A stretch of DNA of 64,000 nucleotides from Planctomycetaceae bacterium (lineage in GTDB: Bacteria > Planctomycetota > Planctomycetia > Planctomycetales > Planctomycetaceae), in NCBI GenBank assembly GCA_015485495.1, contig WFTL01000134.1, forward strand, positions 1 through 64,000. Direction: 5' to 3'. The notes beneath the pieces were generated by a model that saw only the letters and a program-made list of their open reading frames with translations, ran no database searches and was not told the origin of the DNA. The translations under genes and the position numbers were made by a program. This document shows positions 13,969 to 28,100 of the stretch, piece by piece. How positions within the stretch are numbered: the first letter of the stretch is position 1; each line of letters begins with the position of its first letter.

Positions 13969-14041
<73 letters not shown>

Positions 14042-14242
14042 CTGTCTCCCCGTTCAGTTCGCACATCTGTTCTGCCACGGCGGGACCATCTGTTCTGCTC
14101 TCGGTGGAACGATGGAGTTCTCCGCCACGGGGCCACGTTTCGCGCAGTCAATACCGGCAGTCGCGATCGAAGATGCAGCAGGAAGCTTCGACGCCAACCG
14201 GAAAGACCGGATTTGTCGGCCGGAAGACGGCGCCCCAGAACG

Positions 14243-22466: not shown

Positions 22467-23792
22467 ATGGCAACGCAACGACTTCCGGGGCGGCCGGCTT
22501 CCCTGCTGCCCCGGGCCACCTGCCCGCACTGCTGGCACCGGTTTCCTCCTGAAGAGTCGCTCTGGGTATCTGCCCATCCCGATCTCGACGACGACGATGT
22601 CGTGACTCCACGAGGTCAGCGGCGTTTTCTTCCCACCCGGATCACCGCAACCGGCCATGCACTCGACATTCGCGGGGAAGTGTGTCATCACCTGGCCTGC
22701 CCGCGCTGCCATCTGACCATCGTCCGTGCTCTGCTGGAACTCGATCCGCTCATCTTTTCCATCCTGGGAGCCCCGGGTTCGGGGAAGTCGTACTACCTGG
22801 CCGCATCCATCTGGCAGCTTCGCAGAGTTCTGGGAACACAGTTCCAGATTGCATTCGGTGATGCGGATCCGTCCGCCAATCGGATGCTGAATCAGTATGA
22901 AGAAACGCTGTTTCTGAACAATCAGCGGGATCAGCCGGTGGCCCTGCCCAAAACGGAAAAAGAAGGCGACCTGTACCAGTCTGTGGTCCTGGGCGGCCGG
23001 CCGGTTCTGTTTCCGAAGCCTTTTGTGTTTTCAATCCGTCCGCAGCCGGATCATCCGCTGTCCCGCCATGCCCGGGCTTTGTCCCGCGCGTTCTGCCTGT
23101 ACGACAACGCGGGGGAACATTTCATGCCGGGCGAAGAATCGTCCAGCAATCCCGGAACTCAGCATCTGACCGTTTCCCGGGCTCTGCTGTTTCTGTTCGA
23201 TCCCACACAGCACCACGAATTCCGCGAAGCCGTGGCCTCTCAGACCGACGACCCTCAGATGGGAGAACAGGGCTGGAACTTTCGGCAGGATCGCATTCTG
23301 CTGGAAGCCGAAAGCCGCATCCGCGCGCTGACCGGCCTGCCGCAGTCGCAGCGCGACAAACGGCCGCTGATCATCGTGGTCACCAAGCACGATGCCTGGC
23401 GGTCTCTTACGGGCGGCAGCCACCTGGATCCCGACTGGTTCATCCGCACCAGCCGCAGCGGCCGGTGCGCTCTGGATGTGGCGCGGATCGCCGAAACCTC
23501 CGAACAGATCCGCAGCCTCATGCTGAAGTACGCTCCGGAAGTGGTCAGTGCGGCAGACGGGTTTTCATCCGACGTCACGTATCTGCCCGTCAGCGCTCTG
23601 GGACGCGGCCCGGAACTCGTGGAGGAAGCGGAAACCCGATTCGCCATCCGCCCGCGCGACGTGAAGCCTGTCTGGGCCGAAGTGCCCCTGCTGTACGCGC
23701 TGCAGCGCACCGTCCCCGGACTCATCCCCTCATACAGCGGACGCGGCCGCATGAAGGCCCGGCTGCACACGGCAGAAGGTCCTCAGGGATGA
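22467..23792 (+). CDS. Zinc-ribbon GTPase of a GAP1-linked system
   Basis: About 441 residues. An N-terminal ribbon is formed by CPHC (19-22) and CHHLACPRC (73-81). The P-loop GAPGSGKSY follows at about 101-109, the G3-like CLYDNAGEHF at about 210, and VVTKHD at about 305, the latter giving GTP specificity. This is a TRAFAC-like GTPase as found in the 'double-GTPase' families that accompany GAP1 proteins. It has no membrane segment, so it should work in the cytoplasm against a membrane partner. I use the ATG at 22467; a GTG at 22395 is possible. The stop overlaps the next start as ATGA. Confidence 0.82.
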   Translation: MATQRLPGRPASLLPRATCPHCWHRFPPEESLWVSAHPDLDDDDVVTPRGQRRFLPTRITATGHALDIRGEVCHHLACPRCHLTIVRALLELDPLIFSILGAPGSGKSYYLAASIWQLRRVLGTQFQIAFGDADPSANRMLNQYEETLFLNNQRDQPVALPKTEKEGDLYQSVVLGGRPVLFPKPFVFSIRPQPDHPLSRHARALSRAFCLYDNAGEHFMPGEESSSNPGTQHLTVSRALLFLFDPTQHHEFREAVASQTDDPQMGEQGWNFRQDRILLEAESRIRALTGLPQSQRDKRPLIIVVTKHDAWRSLTGGSHLDPDWFIRTSRSGRCALDVARIAETSEQIRSLMLKYAPEVVSAADGFSSDVTYLPVSALGRGPELVEEAETRFAIRPRDVKPVWAEVPLLYALQRTVPGLIPSYSGRGRMKARLHTAEGPQG

Positions 23793-25942
23793 GTCACGAG
23801 ATCGTGTATACCTCTGCGCCGCAGGGACTCAAACCCGGCAGCAAGGGGTTCTGCACGGTCATCAGCACCGAAGGCATTTCGGATTATCTGGTGGAACGCC
23901 TCGAGATGCTCAGCGGATACCGCCATGCCTTCTCCCCCGGCGATCCCAGAGCTCCGGTCAATTACTCGCATCTGCAGATCCGCGTGGGACGAGAAACCTA
24001 CTACGTCCTGTCCCGCATCTGCGACGCCGGTTTCGACTACAGCCAGCGGTCCAACAAGCTGGCTCACCACATTGCGCTGTCGGCTTCCGAACGCGTGGCC
24101 GCCGGTCCGGCAGCCGTCCTGGCCTCGAAAGGCTTTTTCATCACCCGCTGGGACGGGCACGTGCGTGTTCTCCCCACCGGTCGGCTCCCCGCTCCCCGCC
24201 CGGCTCCCGGCGGCACGTGTCGAACATGGAAATCCGTCACCGGCGATGCAGGCTGGGCCGGCTGGCTGGCTGAAACCGTCCTGCAGCCGCGGCCCCGACC
24301 CGTGACCCTCCTTTTCCGCCCCGAAACCGACACGCTGACGCTTGTTGCCGAAGCCATCTGCCTGCTGCCGGCTCACCGGAGGTGGGATGTGACATTCAAC
24401 ACGTATTACACCCGAGCCGTCGCCGGCAGCGACTGTCTGTGGCGCTTTGTTCTGGACGGCACGCGGCAGGCCGATGAACTGCGGGTGCGTCCGGATATCC
24501 GGCTGGTGGACCTGAACCATCCGGGCCGCCTGAAAGAAGAATCCGAACTGATCGCCCTGGCCCGCAGCGGAAAATGCACCACCGCGGCCTCTCAGAGTTT
24601 CACGCTGCCGCCTCCGGAACCTCCCGGCAGCCGAAAGCAGGCGTCGTGGCCCACACGACGCAGGCCACGGGCCGCCAGCACCGCGTCCGTAGATGATTCC
24701 ACGGAATCCGGCATGCTCCCAAACAGCGACAGTTCCCAGGTGTGTGTTCCGGAACTGCCGGCATCACACCGTTACGACGCGATTCGCCGCCGCCGTCTGC
24801 GTCGTCTTCTGCTGATCGGGTTTCTGGCCGTTTCAGCGGCGGCCGGAGCGATCGTGGCCGGAGCCTGGTATTCGCGTCAGCAGGCTTTGCGGTCGGCGCC
24901 GGACTCCCTGCCGACAGAGGTTCCCGACACGGCCGCATCGGGCGCCGGGGGGGCCGATCATGAGGTTTCCGAAGAAGCAGACACGCCGTCGTCCGCGGCA
25001 GACAGCAGTGAGCCTTCGCCTCGTTCGGCCGATCCATCCGATGCCGGAACCGGCACCAGCCGTCATTCCGATTCCGCACAGGCAGGTGGACCGGGCCGCC
25101 AGAATGTCGTTGAAACCGGTTCCCGGACCGTTCAGTTTCGTGATCCGGCCGGGACGGCCGTGCTCACCTGGACGCTGCATCCGGACCTGCCTCCTTCGAT
25201 ACTCGAAACACTCCGGTTTGACATCCGCATTCAGCCATCGCCGTCCCGTTCGATTCCCGACGCCCCGCAGATGGAATTCCCCGCACTGATCGGTCAGCTC
25301 CGGTCCGGCCGACAGACGATCCGTCTGTCTGTGGATGCGGACTTCCAAATGGCGGCCACTGTCAGTCCGCTGCGTTCTTCTCGTCTCGGCCCGCCTGGCC
25401 GCCGACAGAATGCCGACCGTACCGTGGCCGAATTCGATCTCAGACTGGAAGCCGTGCCGTCCTCACGGCGGAATTCGGATCACCGTCCGGCTCTGAAGCT
25501 GACGATCGAGCCGCCCCGGTTCCCGCGAGGTGTTCGGACGAGTGGAGTGCGTGCGGCCCGTCGGCTGCTGCACGGGGACCCCCGACTGGTGACCGGAATC
25601 GCTTTTCCGAGCTGGCTGCACGATGTCGGCGAATCCGACGAAAACGGATTTCCTCTTCCGGTTCTCGATCAGCTCGTCAGGGAAATCAACCGGTCTGTGG
25701 AACGGAACGACAGAATCGCCGCCGATTCCCGGTCCCTGGACGCGATTCGATCGCGGCTTCAGAAATACTATCTGGAAGATCCTCCGGAACGGTTTTCTGC
25801 AGCGGCTGAAGGATTTGAGCATCACGTGGAGGCGCTGATTGAGCAGCACCGTGTGTTTCGCGTTCTGCGCGACCATCTGTCCGGCGCGGAGGTTGTCCTG
25901 CAGGCTTTTGTGACACAGCCCGCTCCTTCTGACAAACTGTGA
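23789..25942 (+). CDS. GAP1-N-like membrane protein (GTPase-associated)
   Basis: A 717-residue protein. Residues 1-250 match my recollection of the GTPase-associated protein 1 N-terminal domain: IVYTSAPQGLKPGSKGFCTV, LSGYRHAF, YSHLQI and an ALLPAHRRWDVTFNTYY-like segment. A low-complexity linker leads to one membrane helix (about 333-356, LLLIGFLAVSAAAGAIVAGAWY) preceded by RRRRLRR, so the N-terminus is cytoplasmic. About 70 acidic/Ser-rich residues and a roughly 290-residue outside domain follow. It is coupled to the GTPase by a 4-base overlap and probably senses or tethers it. GAP activity itself is not shown. Confidence 0.8.
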   Translation: MSHEIVYTSAPQGLKPGSKGFCTVISTEGISDYLVERLEMLSGYRHAFSPGDPRAPVNYSHLQIRVGRETYYVLSRICDAGFDYSQRSNKLAHHIALSASERVAAGPAAVLASKGFFITRWDGHVRVLPTGRLPAPRPAPGGTCRTWKSVTGDAGWAGWLAETVLQPRPRPVTLLFRPETDTLTLVAEAICLLPAHRRWDVTFNTYYTRAVAGSDCLWRFVLDGTRQADELRVRPDIRLVDLNHPGRLKEESELIALARSGKCTTAASQSFTLPPPEPPGSRKQASWPTRRRPRAASTASVDDSTESGMLPNSDSSQVCVPELPASHRYDAIRRRRLRRLLLIGFLAVSAAAGAIVAGAWYSRQQALRSAPDSLPTEVPDTAASGAGGADHEVSEEADTPSSAADSSEPSPRSADPSDAGTGTSRHSDSAQAGGPGRQNVVETGSRTVQFRDPAGTAVLTWTLHPDLPPSILETLRFDIRIQPSPSRSIPDAPQMEFPALIGQLRSGRQTIRLSVDADFQMAATVSPLRSSRLGPPGRRQNADRTVAEFDLRLEAVPSSRRNSDHRPALKLTIEPPRFPRGVRTSGVRAARRLLHGDPRLVTGIAFPSWLHDVGESDENGFPLPVLDQLVREINRSVERNDRIAADSRSLDAIRSRLQKYYLEDPPERFSAAAEGFEHHVEALIEQHRVFRVLRDHLSGAEVVLQAFVTQPAPSDKL

Positions 25943-25952
25943 AGGCAGTCCC

Positions 25953-27272
25953 ATGAACGAATATGAATCCGTGATTGATCAGATTCAGGCCGTGCTGGCC
26001 TGGGATCACGATCCGGATCCGGAATACATGCAGGAACTGGCTGAAGAATACACGCGGCTGGTGCGTCAGGTGAACGACCGGCTGCGGGCCTGCGACAAAC
26101 TGCTCAGCCGTGGTCTGCGAACCGAAGCCATCCAGCAGGCGGAAACCGAACCGAATCTGCTGGATGTCACCGCCATTCTTGATTTTCCGGAAGCGGAATA
26201 CTGGGCCGACTACGTCTCGCAGTACGAACTGCCGCCGCTTCCGGAACTGCTGGTGAGCATCGCTGCCGATCTCAATGATGCCTACGCCGCCGAACAGCCG
26301 GTGGCCCGTCTTCTGAAACTGCATCGCCTCCACGCCCTGGCTCTCAGCCCCCTGCGTGACCGCATTCTCATTCTGCGGGAACTGGCCGAACGCGACGTGG
26401 AAAACGCCCACTGGCTGGAAGATCTGGAACAGTACGAACAGGCGCGGCAGGTCCAGATCGAAGAAGAACTGGAAACGGCCCTGCTGGACAAGGACATGAA
26501 GTCGGTCGCGGCTCTGGATGAAGAACTGTCGGAATCGTCCTGGCGCGTGCGGCCGCCGCGTTCCTTAAGAGCCCGGGCACGTGCGGCCCTGAAGCGGCTT
26601 CAGTCTCTGGATGCCCGGCGTCAGGCCCGCCAGGTCGCTGCCGAACTTCTGACCGCCTGGAAAGAAGGCGATGAACAGCGAACGCTGGAGTGCGCCGAAC
26701 GCTGGGAAGAACTCGCCGCGACCGCCGACTTTCCGGAAGACGATCCGCTGCTGGAACAGGTCGTTCCGGCGCTGAGCTGGGCGGCGGCCCGCAGTACGGA
26801 AGCGGCCGGCCAGAAAGCCTGGTTCGATGCCGTGGCTGCTTTGAAAAAGGCCCTCGACCGCGACGCACCGATACACAAACTGCAGCGTCTTGTTCAGACT
26901 CTCGAAGACATCTCAGGCGACATCCCGGACGATCTGCAGGCGGCCGTGAAGGAACGCTTCGATCAGCATGACCGACAGCTCGCCCGCCGGCGTCTGCTCG
27001 TGATTTCCGCAGTGGCCGCCGGTGTCCTGTTTTTCCTGATCATCATGGGGCTGCTGGCTGCTGCTGTCCTGGCTCCTGGAAAGAAAACCGATTCTTCGGA
27101 GGACGCGTCTGCATGGCGACAGGAAGAGTCGGCTGCGACGCTGTGCCGGCAGACTGTTCCGGCCCCGGCCGCCGCATGCACGATGCCGCACGCGCCCACT
27201 GCCGCGGTATCCTTTCAGACAGGCGAAGCGGCTGCTCGGCGACCAACACGCACACCAGGCGGAGAATGCTGA
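25953..27272 (+). CDS. Helical single-span membrane protein of the GTPase cassette
   Basis: A 439-residue protein without a family I can name. Residues 1-340 are almost entirely charged alpha helix with repeated Glu/Arg/Leu/Ala patterns, like tandem helical or coiled-coil scaffolds. One strong membrane helix follows (about 347-373, LLVISAVAAGVLFFLIIMGL), then a Pro/Ala/Thr-rich tail of about 65 residues. Topology is N-in, tail-out. It starts 10 bases after the GAP1-like gene and ends 3 bases before the GYF gene, so it belongs to the same transcript. Probably an adaptor or scaffold. Confidence 0.78.
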   Translation: MNEYESVIDQIQAVLAWDHDPDPEYMQELAEEYTRLVRQVNDRLRACDKLLSRGLRTEAIQQAETEPNLLDVTAILDFPEAEYWADYVSQYELPPLPELLVSIAADLNDAYAAEQPVARLLKLHRLHALALSPLRDRILILRELAERDVENAHWLEDLEQYEQARQVQIEEELETALLDKDMKSVAALDEELSESSWRVRPPRSLRARARAALKRLQSLDARRQARQVAAELLTAWKEGDEQRTLECAERWEELAATADFPEDDPLLEQVVPALSWAAARSTEAAGQKAWFDAVAALKKALDRDAPIHKLQRLVQTLEDISGDIPDDLQAAVKERFDQHDRQLARRRLLVISAVAAGVLFFLIIMGLLAAAVLAPGKKTDSSEDASAWRQEESAATLCRQTVPAPAAACTMPHAPTAAVSFQTGEAAARRPTRTPGGEC

Positions 27273-27275
27273 TCC

Positions 27276-28100
27276 ATGAGTGACACATTTTACATTCAGG
27301 TTCGCGGCAGGAAACAGGGGCCCTACACGGCCGACCGGCTCCGCCGCATGGCGAAGATGGGACGGTTCGGCCGTCAGCACCGCGTGTCCCGGGACGGCCG
27401 TCGGTGGAAACCGGCGGAAGAATTCCCGGAACTGTTTCGCGCTGAAGGAGAACGCAAGCAGCGGCAGGACATCGCCGGGGTCGCCCCGGCCGGAACGGCC
27501 GCTCCGCCGGGAGCGGCTCCTGGCGGAACGGATCCCCTGCCGGCCGGAAGCAGCTCGCAGGGATGGCACTACAGTCACGGCGGCCAGCAGTACGGTCCGG
27601 TGTCCTTCGAAGTGATCCGACACGCTCAGGCAACCGGTCAGCTCACGGCCACCGATCTGGTGTGGACAGCCGGCATGGCCGAATGGAAACAGGCCGACCG
27701 GGCCTTTCCGGGCCTGTTTTCAGGAGAAGCGTCCGGTGCGGGATCCGGTGCCGCCGGGGCCGCCGCCCCGGCTCCCGGCGGGCCGGCCGGCATGCCGCAG
27801 CAGGAAGGCATCGTCCCGCATGCCCCCATGTCCAATCTGGCCCTGTCCAGCCTCGTATTGTCTTTCATTCCGATCATCGGCAGCATCGCTGCAGTGATCT
27901 GCGGACATCTGGCTCTGGCGGAAATTCATCGAAGCGGAGGCGCCATGAACGGACGGAAGTTCGCGGTGGCCGGTCTGGCGATTGGATACGGAATTCTGTC
28001 TCTGGCCGTGCTGTACGGTCTGTTCTGGCTGAGTTCGTCGGCGTTCGCCCCCGGCGATGTCTGGACTCCGGAACTCGTTTCACCCCCGCGGACCCGCTGA
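27276..28100 (+). CDS. Double GYF-domain membrane protein
   Basis: A 274-residue protein with two GYF_2-type domains: FYIQVRGRKQGPYTADRLRRM ending at PAEEFPELF (about 4-52), and WHYSHGGQQYGPVSFEVIR ending at WKQADRAFPGLF (about 95-148). A Pro/Gly/Ala linker leads to two or three membrane helices (about 188-255), as in DUF4190 proteins. GYF domains in this fold class usually bind proline-rich peptides, and the Pro-rich tails and linkers of the neighbouring proteins are candidate ligands. GGAG precedes the ATG. It closes the four-gene cassette. Confidence 0.85.
   Translation: MSDTFYIQVRGRKQGPYTADRLRRMAKMGRFGRQHRVSRDGRRWKPAEEFPELFRAEGERKQRQDIAGVAPAGTAAPPGAAPGGTDPLPAGSSSQGWHYSHGGQQYGPVSFEVIRHAQATGQLTATDLVWTAGMAEWKQADRAFPGLFSGEASGAGSGAAGAAAPAPGGPAGMPQQEGIVPHAPMSNLALSSLVLSFIPIIGSIAAVICGHLALAEIHRSGGAMNGRKFAVAGLAIGYGILSLAVLYGLFWLSSSAFAPGDVWTPELVSPPRTR

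Follow-up and report, generated by a model that had tools for sequence, protein, structure and literature searches.

A possible membrane-anchored GTPase switch in Planctomycetota: comparative anatomy of a DO-GTPase/GAP1-N2 cassette with a double-GYF protein

What might a GTPase control when its gene is packed together with genes for GAP1, helical and GYF partners that sit in the membrane? This question is raised by four genes on the + strand at positions 22467-28100 of the window, i.e. the whole stretch of 64,000 nucleotides that was analysed (contig WFTL01000134.1, from a Planctomycetaceae bacterium). The coordinates of the open reading frames bore out exactly the original prediction of four genes with spacings of -4, 10 and 3 bases: the first two overlap by 4 bases, and the following gaps are of 10 and 3 bases. 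They encode a DO-GTPase with one N-terminal zinc ribbon (22467..23792), a GAP1-N2 protein (23789..25942), a reduced helical scaffold protein (25953..27272) and a double-GYF membrane protein (27276..28100). Profile searches indicated a single copy of the cassette in the genome, which is 98% complete. The sole RNA family match within the window was a tRNA-Lys at 13969-14042.

The GTPase matched the Pfam family DO-GTPase2 (PF19993) at 28.9 bits (cut-off 27) when the cassette proteins were searched, and at just 21.9 bits, under the same cut-off, in the search of the whole genome. Its zinc-ribbon region (residues 19-81; 22521..22709), with two CxxC pairs, is followed by the P-loop GAPGSGKS (residues 101-108; 22767..22790), the G3/Walker B motif DNAGE with its conserved Glu (residues 213-217; 23103..23117) and the G4 motif TKHD (residues 306-309; 23382..23393). 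C19, C22, C78, C81, GxPxSGKS, DNAGE and K.D (K307 and D309) were invariant across 11 relatives. The profile of the GTPase, compared with solved structures, gave weak matches to Der/EngA and ankyrin designs alone. A GTPase of this family was also present in four loci (L129, L132, L175 and L178) with no detectable GAP1 or scaffold within the stretch examined.

The second protein begins with a GAP1-N2 domain (PF20013, 83.9 bits; residues 1-124; 23789..24160) and a GAP1-M domain (PF20014, 49.1 bits; residues 146-237; 24224..24499), the cut-off being 24 bits for each. These are followed by a proline-rich cytoplasmic linker (24554..24763, limits approximate), by a membrane helix assigned from hydropathy (residues 340-358; 24806..24862; the helix of the predicted model spans residues 326-368) and by an outside part (residues 359-717; 24863..25939). 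No GAP1-C match was obtained in Pfam at E 1, and Pfam may have no GAP1-C model; the protein has the membrane helix and the outside part instead. R76 and R87 of the GAP1 protein are invariant residues.

The predicted model of this GAP1 protein was confident at residues 1-265 and poor in the outside part. The fold predicted for the N2 domain is longin-like, and DENN-module structures aligned over the span of N2 and M. The top matches of residues 1-265 in VIA-align were the Loki longin, DENND10, TagF, DENND1A, DENND1B with Rab35, FLCN, CPLANE, Lst4 and GATOR1 chains, with Z values from 7.0 to about 5.9, i.e. below the value of 8 under which, by the program's caution line, a match may reflect merely a common arrangement; PAS domains ranked lower. 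Foldseek found no match with E under 0.001 for the same model, and a profile search of GAP1-N2/M against solved structures provided no sequence-level link. We consider the likeness of the predicted GAP1-N2/M fold to longin/DENN regulators of small GTPases as a lead. What GAP1 has in common with DENND1, FLCN and NPRL2 is this predicted fold, here next to a GTPase gene; the differences are that GAP1 is bacterial and that the likeness comes with a Z of about 7 and no sequence similarity.

The third protein, the scaffold, had no family match above the cut-off in Pfam. It consists of a helical cytoplasmic part, one membrane helix by hydropathy (residues 348-366; 26994..27050) and a unique tail of 71 residues (27051..27269), the limits of which depend on the call of the helix. 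A model of the scaffold, made from the relative L099, was a long helical protein with good confidence; it gave assorted helical-repeat matches, many with a large rmsd, and no specific structural relative is claimed. The fourth protein has GYF_2 in two stretches (91.9 bits), the first at 27288..27437 (approximate limits) and the second at residues 97-141 (27564..27698), followed by a DUF4190 membrane region (42 bits; residues 188-246; 27837..28013). Hydropathy assigned two membrane helices to it.

DO-GTPase/GAP1 systems were defined through comparative genomics by Kaur et al. (2020; PMC7159879); passages of that paper describe planctomycete GAP1-N2 systems, some of them coupled to a GYF pair fused to trypsin or to a membrane-rich region. 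The cassette of the window is of this published planctomycete double-GYF GAP1-N2 type. As in those passages, a zinc-ribbon DO-GTPase with a Walker B Glu is accompanied, just downstream, by a protein with GAP1-N2, GAP1-M and a membrane helix, and by a GYF pair on a membrane-rich protein, which has GYF_2 twice with DUF4190 in the window and trypsin in the related locus L041. The helical scaffold gene present here is not described in these passages. A search of the main text found no mention of MotA, ExbB, TolQ, Zorya or a secretion ATPase for these systems, nor of longin, Roadblock or MglA. It names planctomycete variants by parts other than fibronectin repeats; no fibronectin type III repeats were found in the four window proteins, nor in the long scaffold of L075. 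PMC7159879 was the only paper retrieved with GAP1-N2 terms, or with the GYF domain joined with planctomycetes, in a literature search of partial coverage, which also retrieved no experimental study of DO-GTPase/GAP1 systems.

What is new here is the comparative anatomy of the cassette, derived from 105 distinct related loci with the GTPase; in 70 of these the scaffold gene is complete. The loci came from genome searches and from GTDB contigs scanned with the GTPase, the best 80 of the 377 relatives in that scan being kept. Gene calls in relatives were based on open reading frames, the starts of which may be too long in places, and membrane helices on simple hydropathy. GTPase, GAP1, scaffold and GYF follow one another as a rule, and since this order is kept in dozens of planctomycete loci, the cassette is not a chance assembly. 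The proposal that a DO-GTPase and a GAP1-N2 partner belong to a cassette assembled at the membrane was thus upheld: PF19993, PF20013, PF20014, GYF_2 and DUF4190 all matched, GAP1 and the scaffold have one membrane helix each by hydropathy, and gene order is conserved across planctomycete loci. In eight loci (L061, L063, L064, L066, L067, L068, L069 and L070) three gene clusters were in common, which in L063 are an FGE-sulfatase gene, a DO-GTPase and a GAP1-N2 gene. This corresponds to the FGE-sulfatase subtype in the passages from Kaur et al., which shares with the window the GTPase followed by GAP1-N2 but has an effector gene upstream in place of the scaffold and GYF genes.

The related loci also indicated that the scaffold, which occurs as one copy per genome, is a conserved core component of the system. 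Among the 70 complete scaffolds (a sample made of the best 80 of 377 relatives and the genome-search loci, which vary in completeness, several contigs ending inside the operon), 59 continue for 590-662 residues past the membrane helix and 10 end 0-6 residues past it; the window scaffold, with its 71 residues, is the sole intermediate. It thus lacks the outside part of roughly 600 residues found in most relatives. Among the carriers of the long operon is a planctomycete that can be cultivated, Rhodopirellula solitaria (L158). Up to the membrane helix it is 51% identical to the scaffold of L075, from the same genus, with nothing in common beyond. The possibility that a frameshift had truncated a long protein was rejected: a translated search of the window with the L075 scaffold, in any frame, found nothing past the helix, and its outside part was absent from the window's whole genome.

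In all 10 short loci, GAP1 likewise ends within 6 residues of its helix, and in 9 of them the GYF protein carries a pilus-type ATPase domain, the tenth (L108) being cut by the contig end. L118 has the same short GAP1 and a scaffold that is itself cut; two deep long loci, L065 and L071, combine a short GAP1 with a long scaffold. In the GTPase tree (obtained by a quick method with no bootstrap, and midpoint-rooted for drawing only), the short loci, 11 rows with L118 included, form one clade with an SH-aLRT of 99. The window GTPase is paired with that of L075, a locus where the scaffold is long and no motor lies nearby; the loss in the window is thus separate from that in the short clade. A weakly matching scaffold-like protein was also found with a motor trio, of the kind described below, in two loci (L091 and L092) with no detectable GTPase or GAP1; in L092 they lie beside a TonB-dependent receptor, a YfiR-like protein and an open reading frame resembling a histidine kinase.

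The outside parts, where present, diverge quickly. The window GAP1 is 9-19% identical to its relatives outside and 30-47% inside, and the outside part was the less similar one in all pairs compared, both for GAP1 (351/351; means of 14% vs 40%) and for the scaffold (496/496; means of 18% vs 32%). In 14 of 14 locus pairs chosen for relatedness, dN of GAP1 was higher outside than inside; where computable for both parts, dN/dS was 0.17-0.49 outside and 0.07-0.21 inside, many values being saturated. For GAP1 and scaffold alike, dN/dS was below 0.5 wherever computable, dS often being saturated. Three genomes (L044, L045 and L051) have a second GAP1 copy upstream of the GTPase, and these tandem copies are 77-85% identical inside and nearly unrelated outside. 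This contrast in rate agrees with a shared signalling part to which variable sensors are joined, but part of the fast outside evolution could stem from relaxed constraint. As the outside parts of GAP1 and scaffold are large and quickly varying in most relatives, they probably read a cue from the envelope or the surface.

The original prediction had taken the lack of a visible effector to mean that the window may hold an effector-less, sensing version of such systems or one with a new effector, and had proposed that the GYF domains bind proline-rich tails of the partners. The second proposal held in part. The GAP1 linkers before the membrane contain 14% proline and are enriched in PPP, found in 31 of 83 as compared to 16.8 ± 3.6 in shuffles; in contrast, the classical GYF ligand, PPG followed by a hydrophobic residue, was not enriched (1/83 vs 1.1 in shuffles). 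The idea of an effector-less version was not supported by the relatives, in which the GYF protein is a variable slot. It carries trypsin in L041 and in L090 (the window's genus) and DUF4190 in the window, whereas the short clade has a GspE/PilB-type ATPase in this place and L053 a membrane-rich region (helices by hydropathy). A GYF match followed the scaffold in 60 of the 67 loci with at least 1.5 kb of sequence there, in the sample that includes the best 80 of 377 relatives.

Furthermore, a gene of the MotA/TolQ/ExbB type was present nearby in 25 of the 46 long loci with at least 3 kb past the scaffold (same sample, including the best 80 of 377). Behind it there are usually two further genes, the products of which are coiled-coil proteins with a single helix and, at that helix, an invariant Asp. 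By this comparison, the window holds a reduced member. The channel protein of this subfamily is ExbB-like (MotA_ExbB, 46 bits). The two others had no match to the ExbD profile, so that the term MotB-like rests on their architecture. GAP1-N2 was found in 9 of the 11 genomes with the motor subfamily, as compared to 22 of 294 overall (P = 6e-10, if the 294 genomes are taken, as we infer, to be the first part of the 392-genome sample). The position of the motor loci on the deepest branches of the midpoint-rooted GTPase tree, the root of which is for drawing only, suggests that the motor was lost repeatedly. It is absent from the window's locus, and the subfamily is absent from the window's genome, where the best match (214 bits) belongs to another locus and to a wider type of trio.

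Three further observations concern these genes. Another contig of the window's genome (L093, 6353-10128) carries a separate ExbB-like gene, more distantly related and accompanied by two coiled-coil genes, and trios related to this one occur in genomes in which GAP1-N2 was not found. L090 (2008-12938) is a longer operon with the scaffold, a MotA/ExbB-like gene, a GYF protein that weakly matches DUF2135, two MotB-like genes, a protein that matched profiles of the HtrA/DegP type and of TPR, and the GYF-trypsin protein; upstream of its scaffold, the contig end truncates a gene that is probably GAP1. Finally, MotA-like and MotB-like membrane proteins in relatives of the cassette recall ZorA and ZorB of Zorya. 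Membership of Zorya seems doubtful in view of the ZorA/ZorB profile matches, which were very weak in relatives (at most 19.4 bits) and absent for the window proteins.

The fuller sets of relatives come with a proton-channel cluster or with a motor ATPase of the pilus type, so that control of a membrane machine is the probable role of the set. The reading that we favour, tentatively and with somewhat less than even confidence, is that of a membrane-anchored GTPase switch which, by way of a GYF adaptor, gates a machine of the envelope; the window would hold a reduced variant of it, without a nearby motor. The zinc-ribbon DO-GTPase would be controlled by GAP1, the cytoplasmic N2 and M domains of which are probably a longin/DENN-like regulator, acting as a GAP or as an exchange factor. 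GAP1 and the scaffold, each predicted to cross the membrane once, would hand the cue read by their outside parts to the GTPase. The double-GYF protein would serve as the adaptor on the output side, joined in different lineages to trypsin, to a PilB/GspE-type ATPase or to a membrane-rich region. In the window, with no motor nearby and no outside part on the scaffold, the GYF-DUF4190 membrane protein would be the only visible output. Comparative anatomy thus suggests a testable mechanism, in which a regulated GTPase is tied via GYF adaptors to a proton channel trio or to a pilus-type ATPase.

The main and serious rival is the biological conflict system put forward by Kaur et al. (PMC7159879). 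Here, GTPase and GAP1 would define a threshold, and once an invader had been sensed, the infected cell would be damaged or killed by the membrane or peptidase parts. The families, and the planctomycete double-GYF variant, are the same as in the passages of that paper, and a defence function would agree with the patchy distribution of the cassette (GAP1-N2 in 36 of the 392 sampled genomes of the phylum), with exchangeable outputs that include trypsin-type peptidases and with the fast evolution of the outside parts. Yet, PADLOC returned no match for the four proteins, no defence genes were noticed beside the cassette, and mobile carriage was rejected, no relative having been found among plasmids or viral contigs. 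In addition, what varies is located outside the membrane, while the products of phages act on its inner side, and a proton channel trio or a PilB-type ATPase would be an unusual killing effector. On balance, we regard a conflict function as somewhat unlikely.

The envelope-machine switch can also be given a more specific form, as a controller of motility, polarity or envelope transport resembling MglA/MglB of Myxococcus, which acts on the AglRQS gliding motor and type IV pili. In both cases a GTPase and a regulator, which is a putative one here, are tied to a motor with an ExbB-type protein, joined by two ExbD-type proteins in Myxococcus and by two MotB-like ones in relatives of the cassette, and to a pilus-type ATPase, which is that of the short version here. 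One ExbB-like and two MotB-like genes are reminiscent of AglR with AglQ/AglS, i.e. one ExbB and two ExbD/TolR proteins (PMC3169522). The longin-like fold predicted for GAP1-N2 would be related to the Roadblock fold of MglB, longin and Roadblock domains being related GTPase-binding folds (PMC3521125). However, the GTPase is of another family, and the window proteins had no Pfam or NCBIfam match to the MglB Roadblock domain or the MglA GTPase. GltJ links MglA and MglB via a zinc ribbon and a GYF domain. The GYF protein is weakly similar to GltJ (1.3e-5), though the match spans the GYF domain only and reaches 24.5 bits for a cut-off of 450. No Glt envelope set was identified, nor other pilus genes beside the four short-version loci inspected, and the likeness to MglA and AglQ/S is one of analogy and not of established homology. 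We consider an MglAB-like role as quite unlikely. A more far-reaching proposal is that a bacterial GTPase controlled by a longin/DENN-type regulator drives a pilus-type ATPase or else a stator-like complex powered by protons. It would amount to a second, independent lineage of MglAB-like machine control, with a prokaryotic relative of the eukaryotic DENN/FLCN/NPRL family; this seems unlikely, though slightly less so.

It is highly improbable that the window copy is a decaying remnant that became functionless after loss of the motor and of the outside part, for, although its intermediate scaffold tail is found in just 1 of 70 loci and the sister copy keeps the outside part, its four open reading frames are intact and tightly spaced, the GTPase motifs are kept, and the short clade consists of stable versions without outside parts. 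The cassette may have been inherited vertically within the genus: the window GTPase is 72% identical to that of one same-genus genome, and NadE, though it lies on a different contig from the cassette in both same-genus genomes, is 69% identical between each of them and the window.
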